Below are positions 1,499-39,694 of a DNA stretch of 39,694 bases, piece by piece. A program made the translations under genes and the position numbers. The DNA comes from a virus: IMG/VR virus record IMGVR_UViG_3300020171_000013, positions 1-39,694 of that record, one strand, 5' to 3'. How positions within the stretch are numbered: the stretch's first letter is position 1; every line of letters begins with the position of its first letter. The notes under the pieces are model-generated. The model saw only the letters and a program-made list of their open reading frames with translations, searched no databases and was not told where the DNA came from.

Positions 1499-1725
1499 CC
1501 GAGGTGTTGGCCGGAGCCGCGTTCGGGTTAGTCGCCGCTGTCTCTGCCGTAGGGCTTGCGCCCGGCGCTGGTCTCTGCTTCACTCGCCGTAAGGGAGACA
1601 ACCAGAAGGTCTCTAAGGTGTGCCAGTTTTGCCCGCGTGCCAGGTGTTGTTTTTGCGGTTCGCTTCCGCGTGGTGGATGTGTGGTCTCTGCCTGGGCAGG
1701 CTTCGACGTTGGTCAGGTAATCAAA

Positions 1726-1821
1726 AACCCTTTGTTCTGGGCTTGTGCTTGGGCGTCTCCCGAAACAAGGAAAGGGAAAAACACAAGCACAGAACAAAGG
1801 GTTCTGTTTCCTTGTCTCAGG
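1726..1821 (-). promoter_or_regulatory. Leader element I: interleaved inverted repeats (b-a-b'-a'), attenuator-like
   Basis: Read as minus-strand RNA, segment b (1821-1807) pairs with b' (1773-1759) over 15 bases counting G-U pairs. Segment a (1803-1779) pairs with a' (1750-1726) over 25 bases with two mismatches. The order b-a-b'-a' makes the stems mutually exclusive or pseudoknotted. Arm a' ends in GGGTT followed by TTTGATT, so the a:a' hairpin is terminator-like. The promoter at 1875-1902 drives RNA into it, and the replication-type genes lie downstream. Leader elements II and III share this topology. Confidence 0.75.
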
Positions 1822-1874: not shown

Positions 1875-1902
1875 AGTATATCAAATCCTGGCAGGATGTC
1901 AA
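1875..1902 (-). promoter_or_regulatory. Sigma70-type promoter for the replication-type genes
   Basis: On the minus strand: -35 TTGACA (1902-1897), 16-base spacer, -10 TATACT (1880-1875), predicted start near 1868. Directly upstream of the -35 lies GTGAGTAATTCAC (1915-1903), a GTGA/TCAC dyad with a 5-base centre. It resembles, but is one base shorter than, the operator seen at four other promoters. Confidence 0.75.
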
Positions 1903-2763: not shown

Positions 2764-2784
2764 TGGCTATCTCCTAAAATGCAA

Positions 2785-2890
2785 ATCGCTTTTGTCTGAC
2801 TGCGGCTGTAGCGAGCCTATCAGGGGGTTAGGCAAAGCCACAGCCAGACAAAAGCGATCTGGCGTTCCCTGAATTTCTGGCAGTCGCTAC
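2785..2890 (-). promoter_or_regulatory. Leader element II: interleaved inverted repeats before the membrane-protein gene
   Basis: Arm a (2858-2845) and arm a' (2798-2785) form a perfect 14-base stem (ATCGCTTTTGTCTG and its complement), with further pairing of GGCTGT/ACAGCC. Arm b (GTAGCGA on the minus strand, 2890-2884) pairs with b' (2814-2808), which lies inside the a:a' loop. This gives the same b-a-b'-a' order as at 1726-1821. It lies between the promoter at 2910-2938 and the ribosome site before 2763. Confidence 0.65.
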
Positions 2891-2909: not shown

Positions 2910-2938
2910 AGTCTATCATTTTATCGCGGCTGTGTCAA
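2910..2938 (-). promoter_or_regulatory. Sigma70-type promoter
   Basis: Minus strand: -35 TTGACA (2938-2933), 17-base spacer, -10 TAGACT (2915-2910), predicted start near 2903. It drives the membrane protein, the tRNA and the zinc proteins. Half of the CRP-like operator (TGACAC) abuts the -35. Confidence 0.7.
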
Positions 2939-4240: not shown

Positions 4241-5326
4241 TTACTTCGCCCGCAGCACCGTGAGGGCTGCGTCGCGCTTGTATTTGAGTTCTTCCAGGCG
4301 ATCACCTTCGGCGGTCAGGATGGCCTTCTCGATGTTGTTGTACACAGCCGTCAAAACGTTGGTTTCCATGTCGCCGTAGGCCTTGCCCTGACTGTTGGTC
4401 ATGGCCTTTGCAACTTCGATGTTAAGCTCGTATGATGGGGCGGGGAAACCTGGGGCGGCTTCCTGCTGCTGCTCGGCGGCGGGTTCAGGTGCGGGAGGGA
4501 TGTCCACAATTTCGCCTTCCACGACATCTACCGTTTCGAGCGGAACGGAAGCAGGCCAGGGTACTTTCGGGGTGGCGGGAGCGTCATACCCGAGGGCGCT
4601 CAGGTTGTCATTGACTGAGCGGGGGGCGGGCGGCGGTGCGCTGACGGTCATCTCCTGGAACGACCCTTCGATGACTACGCCGGGGCTTGTGTCCGCGCCG
4701 TCATAAATGGGTTCGTTGGTGGAGAAGCGGTGGTGGCGGGCGTTGGTCTCGGCGCGCTTCTTGGCGCGTTCAGCCGGGTTGAAGTTGCGATCCTTCCATT
4801 CGTTGAGTTCGGCTGTATAGACCACCCCGATGCCGGACGAGTAGGGCGCAGGCCCGCAGGAGCTAATGATGTCCTGGTAAGACACATTCCCGATGACTTC
4901 TTTCAGCGTTCTGCCGATGTCGGTAATGCGTTTTTGCCAGTTCCGATAGGACTGGGTATCGCGCAAACGGCACTCGAAGGCGTAAGCCCAATCCTTCTGC
5001 ATTTTGTCCTTCGGATATTCTTGAAACTCCAGATCAATCGTGTCGCCGGGGCCAACTTCTTCCTGATTCTTGCGGCGCAGACCGTTGATGTGCATGGAGT
5101 TGCTCATCGTGCGACCCTCTTTGTCCACGATGGTATTGACTTCCGAGATGGGGTCAAGCCCCTGTTGGGCAGCGAAGGCGGCGCGCCCGATGATCTGTTC
5201 ATCGCTCATGCGCCGACCGTTGACGATCATCTCCCGCAAAAGCGGGATGTATGCCTTTTTTAGGCTCTCGATTTGGTTCGCCCGATCAACTGCCAGGGCG
5301 AGCGCGTTGGGGGTGTTGTCTGTCAT
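4241..5326 (-). CDS. Putative RecT/Bet-like single-strand annealing protein
   Basis: A 361-residue protein from ATG 5326 (AAAGGAG upstream; ATGA overlap with the preceding micro-gene). The N-terminal 200 residues show the layout of the RecT/Red-beta/Bet family: AAFAAQQGLDPISEVNTI, then a segment ending MHINGLRRKNQEE, then YAFECRLRD with basic residues. The C-terminal third is Pro/Ala/Glu-rich and ends in a helical domain (TAVYNNIEKAILTAEGDRLEEL). Such proteins anneal complementary single strands in phage recombination and replication. I see no partner exonuclease nearby; VRR-NUC at 10518 is a distant candidate. The family assignment comes from recognition of the pattern, not from a search. 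Confidence 0.5.
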   Translation of the reverse strand: MTDNTPNALALAVDRANQIESLKKAYIPLLREMIVNGRRMSDEQIIGRAAFAAQQGLDPISEVNTIVDKEGRTMSNSMHINGLRRKNQEEVGPGDTIDLEFQEYPKDKMQKDWAYAFECRLRDTQSYRNWQKRITDIGRTLKEVIGNVSYQDIISSCGPAPYSSGIGVVYTAELNEWKDRNFNPAERAKKRAETNARHHRFSTNEPIYDGADTSPGVVIEGSFQEMTVSAPPPAPRSVNDNLSALGYDAPATPKVPWPASVPLETVDVVEGEIVDIPPAPEPAAEQQQEAAPGFPAPSYELNIEVAKAMTNSQGKAYGDMETNVLTAVYNNIEKAILTAEGDRLEELKYKRDAALTVLRAK

Positions 5327-5415
5327 TTCCTTGCTCCTTTGAGTATGTCCCGCCCGGTGATGACCAGGGCGGGGATGAATAGGATAGCGATCATGATGAT
5401 ACCGACGATGGTCAT
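5323..5415 (-). CDS. Micro-protein with one membrane segment, 30 aa
   Basis: Starts at ATG 5415 and stops at TGA 5325-5323. It overlaps its neighbours by ATGA at both ends, giving a coupled chain with the gene above and the RecT-like gene below. The product is a single hydrophobic helix (IVGIIMIAILFIPALVI) ending in a basic tail. Too short for routine calling; the two coupling junctions are the evidence. Function unknown. Confidence 0.55.
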   Translation of the reverse strand: MTIVGIIMIAILFIPALVITGRDILKGARK

Positions 5416-5564
5416 GGCGTGGTTGCTTTCTTGACCATCTCGCGGACTTCGGCGCGGGTCGGGCGCGATTCCTGCTCGCGAAGCCGGTCATAAATCCAAT
5501 CAACCGGGTCTGCGCCTTCTTTGGCAGCCTGAGCGACAATCTCGCGGACTTCGGCAGTGGTCAT
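5412..5564 (-). CDS. Small protein with internal repeat, 50 aa
   Basis: ATG 5564 overlaps the TGA of the upstream gene, and the TGA (5414-5412) overlaps the ATG of the 30-residue membrane peptide. The sequence contains AEVREIV near the start and AEVREMV near the end, a 7-residue motif repeated 36 residues apart, joined by GADPVDWIYDRLREQ. It is probably two short helices. Function not recognised. Confidence 0.6.
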   Translation of the reverse strand: MTTAEVREIVAQAAKEGADPVDWIYDRLREQESRPTRAEVREMVKKATTP

Positions 5565-11098: not shown

Positions 11099-11485
11099 CC
11101 CCAATTTCCCCCCGAACCTTACAAATTGGCACTGCTTTGGATCTGTGAAAACCCACCCAATCGCGCCGTCGTTGTAAAACCCCAGGTCTATCGTTTTTGG
11201 GAGCGCGGCCGGGTTATCGCTAACAAGATCGTTCCCGTAGCCCTGGACAAAACCGACGAGGTTGACGACGCCAACGATGCCGCCGGTCGGAAACTCCGCG
11301 GGCCAGGGGTAGCCGTTGGCCTCGCAGAATTTGCGGGCCGCGCACATGTCGTTATCGTTGACGGTTTTCGACGCCAGAATCGCCAGCGGGCCACGATATT
11401 TTGTAGACCACGAGCGATTCTCGATTTGCTTGACGCCCTGGACGATGAGGGTGGCCCAGGGTTGACGTACCGCAAGAGCTTTCAT
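11063..11485 (-). CDS. ASCH-domain protein (PUA-like), leftward island
   Basis: 140 residues from ATG 11485 (a TTG three bases earlier is also possible). ASCH signatures: KALAVRQPWATLIVQG, VKQIENRSWSTKYRGPLAI and the strand AIGWVFTDP. These PUA-like domains bind RNA or modified bases; some cleave RNA. It is the only leftward gene inside the rightward arc and has its own promoter with a CRP-like dyad. The predicted transcription start falls on the A of ATG, so the mRNA is probably leaderless. The neighbouring divergent gene is a PP-loop enzyme; a joint role in nucleotide modification or its recognition is a guess. Confidence 0.8.
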   Translation of the reverse strand: MKALAVRQPWATLIVQGVKQIENRSWSTKYRGPLAILASKTVNDNDMCAARKFCEANGYPWPAEFPTGGIVGVVNLVGFVQGYGNDLVSDNPAALPKTIDLGFYNDGAIGWVFTDPKQCQFVRFGGKLGLFDIPDNLIRF

Positions 11486-11491
11486 CAATCC

Positions 11492-11533
11492 ATTATATCA
11501 AACTGCCTGATCGAGTCAAGTGACATTCGTCAC
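11492..11533 (-). promoter_or_regulatory. Operator-bearing promoter (c) for the ASCH gene; leaderless start
   Basis: Minus strand: -10 TATAAT (11497-11492), 16-base spacer, -35 TTGACT (11519-11514). The perfect dyad GTGACATTCGTCAC (11520-11533) abuts the -35. Six bases separate the -10 from ATG 11485. The same dyad lies 10 bases upstream of ATG 11543 on the other strand, so one protein could control both genes. Confidence 0.75.
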
Positions 11534-11542
11534 ATAAAAAAT

Positions 11543-12286
11543 ATGAATACTGCAAAAATCGAACACCCTGAGTTATTCGACCCGGAGACGGGCCTGCCGC
11601 TGCCCAGCCCGCGCCTGGTAGAGATTGCGCGCCAGGTGGCCGGGAATCGGCTGCTGCTGTCGTTTTCGGGCCGCGACAGTCTGGCCTGCTGGCTGTATCT
11701 GCGAGACCAGGGCTTTGAGCTGATTCCGTATTTTTGCTATACCGTGCCGGGCCTGAGTTACGATGATGAGATGTTGGATTACTACGAGCGGTTTTTCGGC
11801 CAGCACATTATCAGACTGCCGCACCCCCGCACCTACGAGTTGTTTTACGCCCGCGCCTGGATGCCCCCCGACGTGGCGGCGATGATCTGGCGCTGCAAGT
11901 TGCCGCGCTTCGAGTATTCAGACATTGAGCGATGGCTTGCAGAGCAGTTCGGGCTTGGAGACGACCACCTGACCGGGGTGGGCATCAAGAGCGCGGACAA
12001 CCTGATGAGGCTGCGCCTCATCCGCCAGATGGGGCCAATTGGTTACAAAAAGCGCCGGTACTACTACGCGATTTGGGATTGGAAAACGGCGGATGTCAAA
12101 GCCAGAATCGAGCAAGCTGGATTGAGGCTGAGTAAGTCGTACTTCTATTTCGGCTCGACGGGCGACGGAATAGACTATCGTTTTGTGCGCTATCTCAAAG
12201 ATAATCTGCCAGATGATTACCAGCGGGTGCTGGACGTATTCCCGGAGTCCGATCTGGAGTTGTTTCGGTACGAGGGCGTGAAATGA
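11543..12286 (+). CDS. PP-loop ATPase of the PAPS-reductase/sulfotransferase-like superfamily
   Basis: 247 residues from ATG 11543; the longer open frame upstream is antisense to the ASCH gene. The ATP-pyrophosphatase loop is SFSGRDS (residues 40-46), one residue shorter than the usual SGGxDS. It is followed by IPYFCYTVPGLSYDDEMLDYY and PHPRTYELFY. Relatives activate a substrate with ATP, in sulfur assimilation, tRNA thiolation or DNA phosphorothioation; phage versions are mostly uncharacterised. There is no ribosome site before the ATG. The next gene overlaps by ATGA and may be its partner. Confidence 0.75.
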   Translation: MNTAKIEHPELFDPETGLPLPSPRLVEIARQVAGNRLLLSFSGRDSLACWLYLRDQGFELIPYFCYTVPGLSYDDEMLDYYERFFGQHIIRLPHPRTYELFYARAWMPPDVAAMIWRCKLPRFEYSDIERWLAEQFGLGDDHLTGVGIKSADNLMRLRLIRQMGPIGYKKRRYYYAIWDWKTADVKARIEQAGLRLSKSYFYFGSTGDGIDYRFVRYLKDNLPDDYQRVLDVFPESDLELFRYEGVK

Positions 12287-12860: not shown

Positions 12861-13313
12861 ATGCCTGCCGGAAGACGAACTACGCTCAGTGAAGAAGTAA
12901 TTGCAAAAATATGTGAGGCGCGCTTGATTGGCGCGACTTACAAAATTGCCGCGCAATATGCCGGTGTAGGCGAATCTTCCATTATGTGCTGGCTGGAAAT
13001 AGCGAGGGAACTGCAAAAGAAAATTGACGAGGGAGAAAAGCCGAGATTCAGCAAATATCAGAAACTCGTCATGGAATTTTCGAGGAGAATCACCGAGGCA
13101 GACAATATAGATGACATAAATCTCTTGCAGGTTATTGATAAGGCCGCGTCAAGTGATCCGGGGTGGGCCGAAAAGCGTCTGCGGTGGAAACATCGCGGGG
13201 CGTTCGAGATTGCTACCAATATTGACCTGACCACTGGCGGCGATAAAATCCAGCCGACCGTTATCGAGATTGTGAAGACCTATGAACAGTCTCTACCACC
13301 TGGAAAAGAGTAA
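12861..13313 (+). CDS. Terminase small subunit-like protein
   Basis: 150 residues. An N-terminal helix-turn-helix (TLSEEVIAKICEARLIGAT, then YKIAAQYAGVGESSIMCWL) is followed by a helical oligomerisation region, as in small terminases that recognise the packaging site and assemble rings. It overlaps the large terminase by 32 bases. Its ATG has no clear Shine-Dalgarno. The sequence alone does not distinguish it from other HTH proteins; the position makes the call strong. Confidence 0.8.
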   Translation: MPAGRRTTLSEEVIAKICEARLIGATYKIAAQYAGVGESSIMCWLEIARELQKKIDEGEKPRFSKYQKLVMEFSRRITEADNIDDINLLQVIDKAASSDPGWAEKRLRWKHRGAFEIATNIDLTTGGDKIQPTVIEIVKTYEQSLPPGKE

Positions 13314-14568
13314 ACTCGTTTGCACCCTGCACCCCGGGCAAACCGCCGCACACGAAAGCAGGCGGCGGTTCGTATTTATCATTGCCGGGACACAGAGCGG
13401 GAAAACATCGTATGAACCGATTTGGCTCGACCGCGAAATCAGAGAGCGCGGAGAAGGCGACTACCTGGCAGTGACCGCCACCTACGACTTGCTAAAACTC
13501 AAATTCTTGCCGGAGTTGCAACATTACTTTGTTGACCTGTTCAGCTGGAATTATTCAGCGTCTGAGCGTACCATTTGGAAAGAGTACAAGCCGCGCATGT
13601 TCACCCGTATCATCATGCGTTCGGCTGACTCGGAAGGCGGGCTGGAATCGGCAAGCGCAAAAGCCGCGGTATTTGACGAGTGTGGGCAAGACCGGGTGGG
13701 TGTGGGCGCGTGGGAAGCAATCCAGCGCCGGCTATCATTGGCGCAGGGGCGCGTCCTGGGCGGCACAACACCCTATAACCTGGGCTGGCTCAAGCAGCAA
13801 ATATTCGACCGCTGGCGCAATGGCGACCAGGATTATCAGGTTATCCAATTCAAAAGCGTGATGAACCCGTGCTTCCCGCGCGCCGAATACGAGCGGGCGC
13901 GGGCGACATTGCCGGAATGGAAATTCCGCATGTTTTACGATGGTGAGTTTACCCGCCCGGCCGGTATGATATACTCGGATTTTAGCGACGACGAGAACAC
14001 CTGTGCGCCGTTCGAGATGCCAATCCACTGGCCGCGCTACGTCGGCATTGACTTCGGCGCAGTCAACACGGCGCTGGTTTGGCTGGCGCACGACCCCCGT
14101 ACCGACATCTATTACTTGTACAACGAGAGCCTGACCGGTGGCAAGACCACAGAGCAGCACGCCGAAGAGGCAATTTCACACACCAGAGCGGGGATGTCGG
14201 TCTCATACTATGGCGGCGCAAGGAGCGAGACGCAGCAGCGCATGGACTGGGGCGCGGCAGGCGTTACAATTTTCGAGCCGCCCGTCTGGGATGTCGAGGC
14301 CGGGATTGACAGGGTGATAGCCGTCATCAAGTCGAGGCGGCTAAAAGTGTTCCGCAATCTAACAGGCGTGCTTGACGAGATCGGACGCTACTCCCGCGAG
14401 GTAGACGACAGCGGCAACCCGACCGAGAAAATCAAGGATAAAGAAACTTTCCATCGGCTCGACGGCTTGCGCTATGCGGTGGCCGGCCTGGGCGGGATGT
14501 CGTGGGTCACAGCCGAGGCGATGGAGGGATTGGGTAAAGTCGAGAATTACAGGAGTGCATGGAGATGA
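13282..14568 (+). CDS. Terminase large subunit
   Basis: 428 residues, the usual size. ATPase domain: Walker A GTQSGKT (36-42), Walker B AAVFDE (128-133) and motif III GGTTPYN (160-166). Nuclease domain: RYVGIDFGAVNTA with the first metal-binding Asp near 257, and a late acidic patch around FHRLDGLRYAV. It translocates DNA into proheads and cuts concatemers. Overlaps with small terminase and portal show one packaging operon. Confidence 0.95.
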   Translation: MNSLYHLEKSKLVCTLHPGQTAAHESRRRFVFIIAGTQSGKTSYEPIWLDREIRERGEGDYLAVTATYDLLKLKFLPELQHYFVDLFSWNYSASERTIWKEYKPRMFTRIIMRSADSEGGLESASAKAAVFDECGQDRVGVGAWEAIQRRLSLAQGRVLGGTTPYNLGWLKQQIFDRWRNGDQDYQVIQFKSVMNPCFPRAEYERARATLPEWKFRMFYDGEFTRPAGMIYSDFSDDENTCAPFEMPIHWPRYVGIDFGAVNTALVWLAHDPRTDIYYLYNESLTGGKTTEQHAEEAISHTRAGMSVSYYGGARSETQQRMDWGAAGVTIFEPPVWDVEAGIDRVIAVIKSRRLKVFRNLTGVLDEIGRYSREVDDSGNPTEKIKDKETFHRLDGLRYAVAGLGGMSWVTAEAMEGLGKVENYRSAWR

Positions 14569-36710: not shown

Positions 36711-36740
36711 GGGGAGGGAGGGGGCGGGAGGGGGAGGGGG
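36711..36740 (+). repeat. G-run tract with quadruplex potential
   Basis: Six or more runs of three to six G, separated by single A or C bases, directly after the stop of 36741-37007. On the plus strand this fits a G-quadruplex; the leftward mRNA is C-rich here. Confidence 0.7.
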
Positions 36741-37007
36741 TTATCTGTTTACCAACTCCCTGACGCGCTCCCGGATTGTCTCAATAAAATCAAATGTTTG
36801 GCTGCGGTCATCGCCGTAATACCCGTACTCATCGCAAAATGTCGAAAACGACGACCTCCGCCCGTGATCTTGGAGCCACTCCTCGTATGCCGACGCGAGA
36901 TGCAGGATATAACGAATACGCTCCGGTTTCGCGTCCTTCTCTCTGGCGTCTTCCCGAATTTTCCTGACAACCTGCACCTCATCCGGCGTCAAATCCATTG
37001 TTTCCAT
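36741..37007 (-). CDS. Hypothetical helical protein, 88 aa
   Basis: GGAGAG precedes ATG 37007, immediately after the last arm of leader element III. The product is charged and helical: TPDEVQVVRKIREDAREKD, then AYEEWLQDHGRRSSFSTF and FIETIRERVRELVNR. Not recognised. Its expression should depend on the upstream alternate hairpins. Confidence 0.65.
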   Translation of the reverse strand: METMDLTPDEVQVVRKIREDAREKDAKPERIRYILHLASAYEEWLQDHGRRSSFSTFCDEYGYYGDDRSQTFDFIETIRERVRELVNR

Positions 37008-37023
37008 GATCTACTCTCCATCA

Positions 37024-37112
37024 CAAAAGCCCGCATTTCTGCGCTTGCCGGTATTTGTCGAGGATAACGGTTGCAGAAGTGCGGGCTTTTGAAGGCAAGC
37101 GTTACCCTCGAC
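37024..37112 (-). promoter_or_regulatory. Leader element III: interleaved inverted repeats, attenuator-like
   Basis: Minus-strand RNA order: b1 (37112-37100) pairs with b'1 (37069-37057), 13 bases. b2 (37101-37094) pairs with b'2 (37049-37042), 8 bases. Arm a (37091-37073) pairs with a' (37042-37024), 18 of 19 bases. The a:a' stem ends GCGGGC-TTTTG and is terminator-like, directly before the ribosome site of 36741-37007. Confidence 0.75.
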
Positions 37113-37118
37113 CTATTC

Positions 37119-37146
37119 AGTATACACCCGTTTCCAGGAATGTCAA
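37119..37146 (-). promoter_or_regulatory. Sigma70-type promoter for 36741-37007
   Basis: Minus strand: -35 TTGACA (37146-37141), 16-base spacer, -10 TATACT (37124-37119); predicted start near 37112, at the first base of arm b1. The -35 overlaps the stop codon of the upstream gene. Confidence 0.8.
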
Positions 37147-38545: not shown

Positions 38546-39694
38546 TCATCCTGTCGCCCCCGCCATCTCAATCTGCACCCCGCTCGTGCGCTTGCGCGCC
38601 AGGGTGATGTATGCAGGGTTGAGTTCGATTCCGACAAAGTTGCGCCGTAATCGGGCGCACACCCGCCCGACCGTAGCAGTTCCGGCGAAGGGGTCAAGGA
38701 CGAGTTGTGGCACAGGCTCGGCTGGCGGGCAGGCGCAAGATTGACGCCAGCCGGTTGTAGTAGTAAATCCATCCACTCGTCCACCGCCGCTCATTCCGAT
38801 AGTGCCGGTCTTTTTTGCGCCGTTTCCGCCTTGCGCGTGATATAGGGAATCCGTCTTCGGGCAAGGCTTAGATGTTGCGGCAACTCTCTCCACGACCCGC
38901 ACCCAGGGTGCGCCGCACGTTGGGCATTGCCCGCGCTCGGACGTTCCCGCCAGGATACACGGCTCGACCAGGGCAGGCGGGAAAGTTGCAAAATGTGCGC
39001 CGCTGTAGGGACTGGTGGCGATTGTCCAGACTGTGCGGCGGTTCCTAGTTCTGTCCGGGCGCGTCAACGAATTTCCAACGTGGTCTTTAATCTTAGACCC
39101 GTTGCCGCCGTTATCCTGTCCGTCATTCTTGCGCGGCGGACGAAGTTGAAACTCTTTTGTGTCATAGCCAAATTGCCGCGCACGCTCTAGCCCTGACTGT
39201 ATTTCCCGCGGGTCATCGCATACACCATCTTCCCTCACTGCCTCCGCATCATAATAATACCGCTGGCTCTTGCTCAGCAGGAAGATATACTCATGGCTCT
39301 TGGTCGGCCTGTCTGTCACACTCTCCGGCATGGGGTTGGGCTTGTGCCAGATAATATCCGAGCGCAGATACCAGCCGTCAGCTTGCAGGGCGAAGGCAAC
39401 ACGCCAGGGGATACCGAGGAGGTCTTTGGGCTTTAGCCATTCAGGACGCTTTATGCCTTTTATTGCGTTTCTTGACGGCTCATCTAAATTAACTTGCCCC
39501 GTTCCCGGAAAGCCTTTTCCCTGTTGTGCAAAATACGAATCTCCAAGATTTATCCACGCCGTCCCATCATCCCGCAGCACCCGCCACACCTCGCGAAACA
39601 CGGCCACGAGGTTAGCGACGTATGCCTCGGGGGTTGGTTCTAATCCCAACTGCCCATCAATGCCGTAATCGCGCAAGCCGTAGTAGGGCGGTGA
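38546..39694 (-). CDS. Beta-class DNA methyltransferase, C-terminal part (continues at 199-1)
   Basis: Open at the window end because bases 39568-39694 repeat 1-127; the complete 406-residue protein starts at 199. After motif IV comes a variable target-recognition region. A zinc-ribbon-like insert (RGQCPTCGAPW and SCACPP) follows, then SAM-binding motif I DPFAGTATVG (about residue 358) with FVGIELNPAYITLA. The order IV-target region-I defines the beta class. Downstream lies a string of small coupled genes. Confidence 0.92.
   Translation of the reverse strand, partial: SPPYYGLRDYGIDGQLGLEPTPEAYVANLVAVFREVWRVLRDDGTAWINLGDSYFAQQGKGFPGTGQVNLDEPSRNAIKGIKRPEWLKPKDLLGIPWRVAFALQADGWYLRSDIIWHKPNPMPESVTDRPTKSHEYIFLLSKSQRYYYDAEAVREDGVCDDPREIQSGLERARQFGYDTKEFQLRPPRKNDGQDNGGNGSKIKDHVGNSLTRPDRTRNRRTVWTIATSPYSGAHFATFPPALVEPCILAGTSERGQCPTCGAPWVRVVERVAATSKPCPKTDSLYHAQGGNGAKKTGTIGMSGGGRVDGFTTTTGWRQSCACPPAEPVPQLVLDPFAGTATVGRVCARLRRNFVGIELNPAYITLARKRTSGVQIEMAGATG
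39568..39694. repeat. Terminal direct repeat, right copy
   Basis: Exact copy of 1-127; see the left copy. When counting the genome these bases should be used once. Confidence 0.95.

Follow-up and report, generated by a model that had tools for sequence, protein, structure and literature searches.

What would an RNA do with two long stems whose arms are interlocked? The question is raised by positions 1726-1821 of a viral DNA of 39,694 nucleotides (IMG/VR record IMGVR_UViG_3300020171_000013; this whole stretch is referred to as the window), where the leftward transcript carries two inverted repeats in crossing order. The window starts and ends with an exact 127-base direct repeat (1-127 and 39568-39694), as would be expected of a whole phage genome that is circularly permuted or has terminal repeats; the window is therefore probably a complete phage genome.

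The interlocked arrangement itself was fully reproduced. On the minus strand, arm b (1821-1807) pairs with b' (1773-1759) over 15 nt, with 13 Watson-Crick and two G-U pairs, and arm a (1803-1779) pairs with a' (1750-1726) over 25 nt (92% complementary in a repeat search, the arms lying 28 nt apart). The order of arms is b-a-b'-a', and TTTGATT directly follows a', as originally noted. The proposed TTGACA/TATACT promoter does lie upstream, and a match of this grade (at least 11/12) was absent from 20 shuffled windows; it had been placed just ahead of the stems, but b begins about 45 nt past the expected start site. The supposed location in front of replication-type genes was not borne out: neither ORF 949-1434 nor ORF 375-1124 has a functional match, and the nearer one starts 290 nt from the leader, unlike the spacing at all 15 other leaders described below. 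A TTG codon in arm a opens an in-frame ORF of about 89 codons (1528-1797, minus strand, ending at 1528) that may encode a small protein.

Two further leaders of the same plan had been proposed in this genome. We designate the three W1 (the locus above), W2 and W3 (Table 1). W3 (37112-37024) is as clear as W1, but W2 (2890-2782) is weaker: its a:a' stem is strong (26 nt), and the crossing partner consists of two short helices only, GTAGCGA:TCGCTAC and TCAGGG:CCCTGA. Three of the strongest promoter matches of the window each precede one of these leaders, and a fourth, at 11497 on the minus strand (TTGACT-TATAAT), is without an interlaced leader. At that fourth promoter an ATG lies few bases past the -10 element, so a leaderless transcript is possible. 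The genes behind W2 and W3 are small and unannotated, coding for a 72-aa membrane-type protein and an 88-aa protein, respectively. Other features of the window include a tRNA-Met gene (CAT anticodon; 2464-2538, minus) downstream of W2 in the same direction, plus-strand G tracts at 36711-36743, directly past the stop of ORF 36741-37007, which might fold into a quadruplex on the strand that is the template for leftward transcription, and a phosphoadenosine phosphosulfate reductase-like gene (11126-12286, plus), a phage-borne metabolic gene.

Table 1 Elements of the three interlaced leaders in the window
Feature	Position	Strand	Remarks	Basis
W1 promoter	1875-1902	-	TTGACA-16-TATACT, TGA extended -10; 11/12 matches	
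W1 arm b	1807-1821	-	contains SD-like AAGGA	repeat/crossing-stem scan
W1 arm a	1779-1805	-	core 1803-1779	repeat/crossing-stem scan
W1 arm b'	1759-1773	-		repeat/crossing-stem scan
W1 arm a'	1724-1750	-	core 1750-1726; GGG then TTTTTGATT, terminator-like	sequence and crossing-stem scan
W2 promoter	2910-2938	-	TTGACA-17-TAGACT	promoter scan
W2 arm b, outer part	2884-2890	-	inner part TCAGGG 2872-2867	stem analysis
W2 arm a	2836-2861	-		repeat and stem analysis
W2 arm b', outer part	2808-2814	-	inner part CCCTGA 2825-2820	stem analysis
W2 arm a'	2782-2807	-	19 nt upstream of ATG of 72-aa ORF 2545-2763	repeat and stem analysis
W3 promoter	37119-37146	-	TTGACA-16-TATACT	promoter scan
W3 arm b	37095-37112	-	SD-like GAGGG inside; third-stem arm c CGCTTGCC 37101-37094	stem scans
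W3 arm a	37073-37091	-		crossing-stem scan
W3 arm b'	37057-37074	-	c' GGCAAGCG at 37049-37042	stem scans
W3 arm a'	37024-37042	-	GCGGGCTTTTG, terminator-like; 17 nt upstream of ATG of ORF 36741-37007	stem scan and tail score
W3 possible upstream frame	37021-37098	-	25 codons from a TTG; its SD (GAGGG) is in b, its stop between a' and gene SD	

Could such leaders arise by chance or from base composition? At lower scores, random sequence does contain short interleaved stems, but when the entire window was dinucleotide-shuffled 20 times no interleaved pair above the score cut-off was found, and the search of other phages gave the same answer. Protein searches in viral contigs with ORFs 949-1434, 36741-37007 and 4241-5539 yielded no close relatives, and leaders of other phages were therefore reached through the terminase (13282-14568), which has 54 relatives in viral contigs. 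A further 21 relatives aligned in bacterial assemblies, most of them from Chloroflexota (Anaerolineae, Caldilineae) and some from Armatimonadota and other groups, from which we infer a Chloroflexota-type host. The longer terminase-relative contigs (1.94 Mb, some loci overlapping) were filtered for crossing stems followed by a Shine-Dalgarno (SD) sequence and start codon, with a promoter-like pair upstream. Ten distinct leaders passed; a shuffle of the same 1.94 Mb gave none, and at this score level chance is refuted, its probability being close to nil. Later scans added three more (L288, L189 and L141), bringing the count to 13 leaders beyond the window and 16 in total, in 12 phages, found mainly via terminase relatives. 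The same filter returned nothing in 620 kb of host chromosome, where only about four would be expected at the phage rate, and nothing in 180 kb of prophage neighbourhoods.

The expectation of a recurrent phage RNA device is supported by the same promoter-to-SD placement in 11 other phages. The 72-aa protein behind W2 led to 18 other phages, one of which, an 85-kb phage, has a leader built to this plan, L189 (11841-11951); it does not precede that protein, and the terminase alignment has no match in this phage, which suggests a wider distribution. Searches with the HNH gene of L026 returned only itself, and the replication protein of L033 has no matches in isolated phages. A longer leader at 2402-2307 (minus) of L253, with a TTGACA-TATACT promoter, a 29-nt stem, a weak crossing stem and AGGAGG within arm a', is a possible variant left out of the 16.

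The leaders share an order of elements: a sigma-70-type promoter, b, in many cases c, a, b', c' where present, a', a T-rich stretch, SD and start codon, with a' ending directly ahead of the gene SD in 15 of 16. Stem sequences are mostly unrelated, even within one genome; L033, L123a and L123b have in common a U-rich motif lying between b and a; just 3' of b they carry GTG/ATG/TTG-TTT-TTA, which may serve as the start of a peptide or as an RNA motif. Linkers measure 0-22 nt in 15 leaders and 51 nt in one. As they are so short, the two full stems look unable to coexist and on geometric grounds would be alternatives. Many leaders contain a third crossing stem, with c between b and a, and c' between b' and a'; over all 16 leaders this pairing beats shuffled linkers (combined Fisher P = 8e-7). 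It is missing from that position in W1, W2 and a few others, and the three crossing helices of L087 are arranged somewhat differently. Where present, c:c' could form a pseudoknot with b:b', with arm a in its loop. It had been anticipated that the two long stems either exclude each other or form one large pseudoknot; exclusion is favoured by the geometry, and the pseudoknot survives in part, as c:c' together with b:b'.

Annotated genes behind the leaders encode HNH and GIY-YIG type endonucleases, a DnaB N-terminal protein and HTH_36 proteins, likely replication initiators; a putative ParB/methylase-like (methyltransferase-like) protein, judged from its sequence only, follows the L087 leader.

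Inverted repeats near promoters can be protein-binding sites, and a DNA-level element, an operator or origin built from interlaced inverted repeats, would be another way to explain the arms. The mismatches within the stems discriminate between the two. Scored stems have 37 G-T against 9 A-C mismatches in the sense strand, a count biased by a stem finder that tolerates G-U; repeated with a symmetric stem extension favouring neither, it was 21 against 6 (P = 0.003). This excess argues for selection on the RNA of that strand, and together with the oriented T-rich tail and the fixed order from promoter to SD it makes the DNA-level element highly improbable. Antisense immunity of the P1 c4 or P4 CI type was rejected on the arms themselves, which are not in reversed order and allow no continuous duplex in trans.

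The 3' ends of the leaders resemble terminators. Arm a' is G-rich at its end and then T-rich (GCGGGCTTTTG, GGCGGGTTTTTGC and CCAGGGTTTTGTG among the leaders), and scores for a T-tail behind a G/C-rich 3' arm exceed those at 635 other SD-preceded ORF starts of the same phages (P = 3e-5); the low score of W1 is solely due to a G-run with three G/C in six bases. A G/C-rich 3' arm with a T-rich tail ahead of a gene is what an intrinsic-terminator attenuator would have. These tails are short (T3-T5), often interrupted by G and weak in W2, L026b and L087, and the a:a' stems (19-33 pairs with loops of about 30 nt) are larger than usual intrinsic terminators. An alternative structure, b:b' with short linkers, is available to the RNA, exclusion of the two being a geometric argument. 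In an equilibrium calculation ignoring pseudoknots and kinetics, b:b' was the best structure of the nascent RNA folded to the start of a' in all eight leaders so examined, and in the full leader the a:a' state was better than b:b' by 5-31 kcal/mol in 16 of 16. In most leaders the switch is predicted once at least about half of a' has emerged, either shortly before the polymerase crosses the T-rich stretch or while it does so; for L087 the calculation gave no such point.

Our tentative model, to which we give somewhat less than an even chance, is that the leader acts in cis, its crossing stems making up an attenuator close to the promoter. Transcription would start ahead of arm b; once b' is made, b:b' would close, possibly with c:c' as a pseudoknot in many leaders, and trap arm a in its loop. 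Next a' would emerge, with a:a' forming a terminator-like hairpin with a T-rich tail; owing to the short linkers, its full formation would need b:b' to open. If b:b' held while the RNA polymerase crossed the T-rich stretch, the gene would be transcribed; if b were occupied or opened, a:a' would close in time and transcription would stop ahead of the gene. Termination, its direction and its signal are what we infer here, next to the computed crossing stems, recurrence, G-then-T end, G-U bias and energy order.

The same a:a' duplex admits another role, in processing or stability of the mRNA, where it would be cut by RNase III or block 5' decay as in other phage leaders. Its near-perfect 19-33 pairs, adjoining the SD in most leaders, would suit this, but 14 pairs in L087 and 11 in L123b are short for RNase III, and the crossing b:b' and c:c' stems and the T-rich tail would go unexplained; we regard this role as quite unlikely.

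If the crossing stems do form an attenuator, what would open b? SD-like purine runs lie in or beside b in most leaders, several with a start codon right after. Upstream frames with a strict SD occur in 7 of 13 leaders tested, and frames open to the main start region in 6 of 13, against 1.5 expected from shuffles; the stop overlaps the gene ATG (ATGA) in L026a, L030 and L087 and, by eye, also in L288. These frames could also speak for control of translation, with ribosomes loading on an upstream frame with its SD in b and its stop overlapping or abutting the main gene, the crossing stems regulating loading and coupled re-initiation, and a:a' not being a terminator. But W2 and L022 have no plausible upstream frame, those of L123a, L123b and L026b end before or inside arm a, and the gene's own SD is free of the stems, and we consider this reading unlikely, if still a serious one. 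For the attenuator model, the lack of a frame in W2 and L022 means that translation cannot be the universal trigger; the short frame beside b, in about half of the leaders, is a candidate one. Ribosome loading on it, or the speed of the polymerase, is the likeliest signal, and generic RNA-binding proteins could also serve; as b has no shared sequence, a dedicated sequence-specific protein is unlikely.

More broadly, and with greater reserve, we raise the possibility of a widespread attenuator class without conserved sequence, defined only by the stem order 1-2-3-1'-2'-3', in which exclusion would come from crossing and not from shared strands, and nascent-chain timing (polymerase speed or the first ribosome) would decide expression. 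Such a class would escape sequence-based RNA discovery, and it would mean that regulatory RNAs can be conserved in their folding order alone, where covariance models do not see them. Among the phages searched, no homologues of the leaders were close enough for classical covariation, and with unconserved sequence and crossing stems a covariance-model search is of little use; a simple architecture filter could find further leaders. Given their position ahead of likely replication initiators and of DnaB-like, methyltransferase-like and HNH/GIY-YIG genes, the leaders may time genome replication and mobile endonucleases in phages whose Chloroflexota-type hosts are poorly studied. The crossing design would also offer a ready test of how a nascent RNA chooses between exclusive alternatives.

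The leaders belong to no named family, in line with the original prediction: the window compared with Rfam 15 gave only a tRNA above threshold, its covariance models had no match in eight relative loci, and leader matches to miRNA and Phe_leader models were far below threshold and reflect the hairpin. Open-licence papers contained no described equivalent of interlaced leaders, which is weak evidence of novelty. Among known phage systems, the put RNA of HK022 comprises two stem-loops with shared sequence that act on the polymerase (PMC9378689). Like put, our leaders are phage RNAs that directly follow promoters, and three of them occur in one genome; they might make the polymerase ignore later terminators by processive antitermination; put RNAs work right after early promoters. 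Such a function seems very unlikely, since the leaders cross, have no common sequence and also precede single endonuclease genes, and are not the two uncrossed stem-loops of put (PMC9378689).

Leaders of T4-like homing endonuclease genes (I-TevI, segB, mobE and seg43) resemble ours in having a stable hairpin at the SD but are described as single hairpins; that of seg43 in Aeromonas phage 25 does not sequester the SD (PMC2988022). The gap between seg43 and the preceding gene is only about 45 nt, and 25 kb of that phage contained no interleaved stems. Our leaders are not SD-sequestering hairpins either, the gene SD being 3' of a' and not paired in it. The lambda N leader and T7 RNase III sites also place a long hairpin just ahead of a phage gene SD, but without a crossing partner stem or terminator-like tail. 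The replication gene repZ of ColIb-P9/IncI plasmids is controlled, as might be the case here, by a short frame lying upstream, by a pseudoknot and by translational coupling; there, an antisense RNA with a defined loop sets expression. Attenuators of amino-acid operons (trp/phe type) have alternative stems, a terminator hairpin near the promoter and sometimes a short reading frame. Our leaders are similar to these in the promoter-proximal terminator-like hairpin ahead of the gene, the alternative stems and, in some, the short frame. The repeated regulatory codons of trp/phe leaders were not seen in ours, and whereas trp/phe stems compete for a shared strand, the stems described here share no arm and would exclude each other by crossing, 1 with 3 and 2 with 4.
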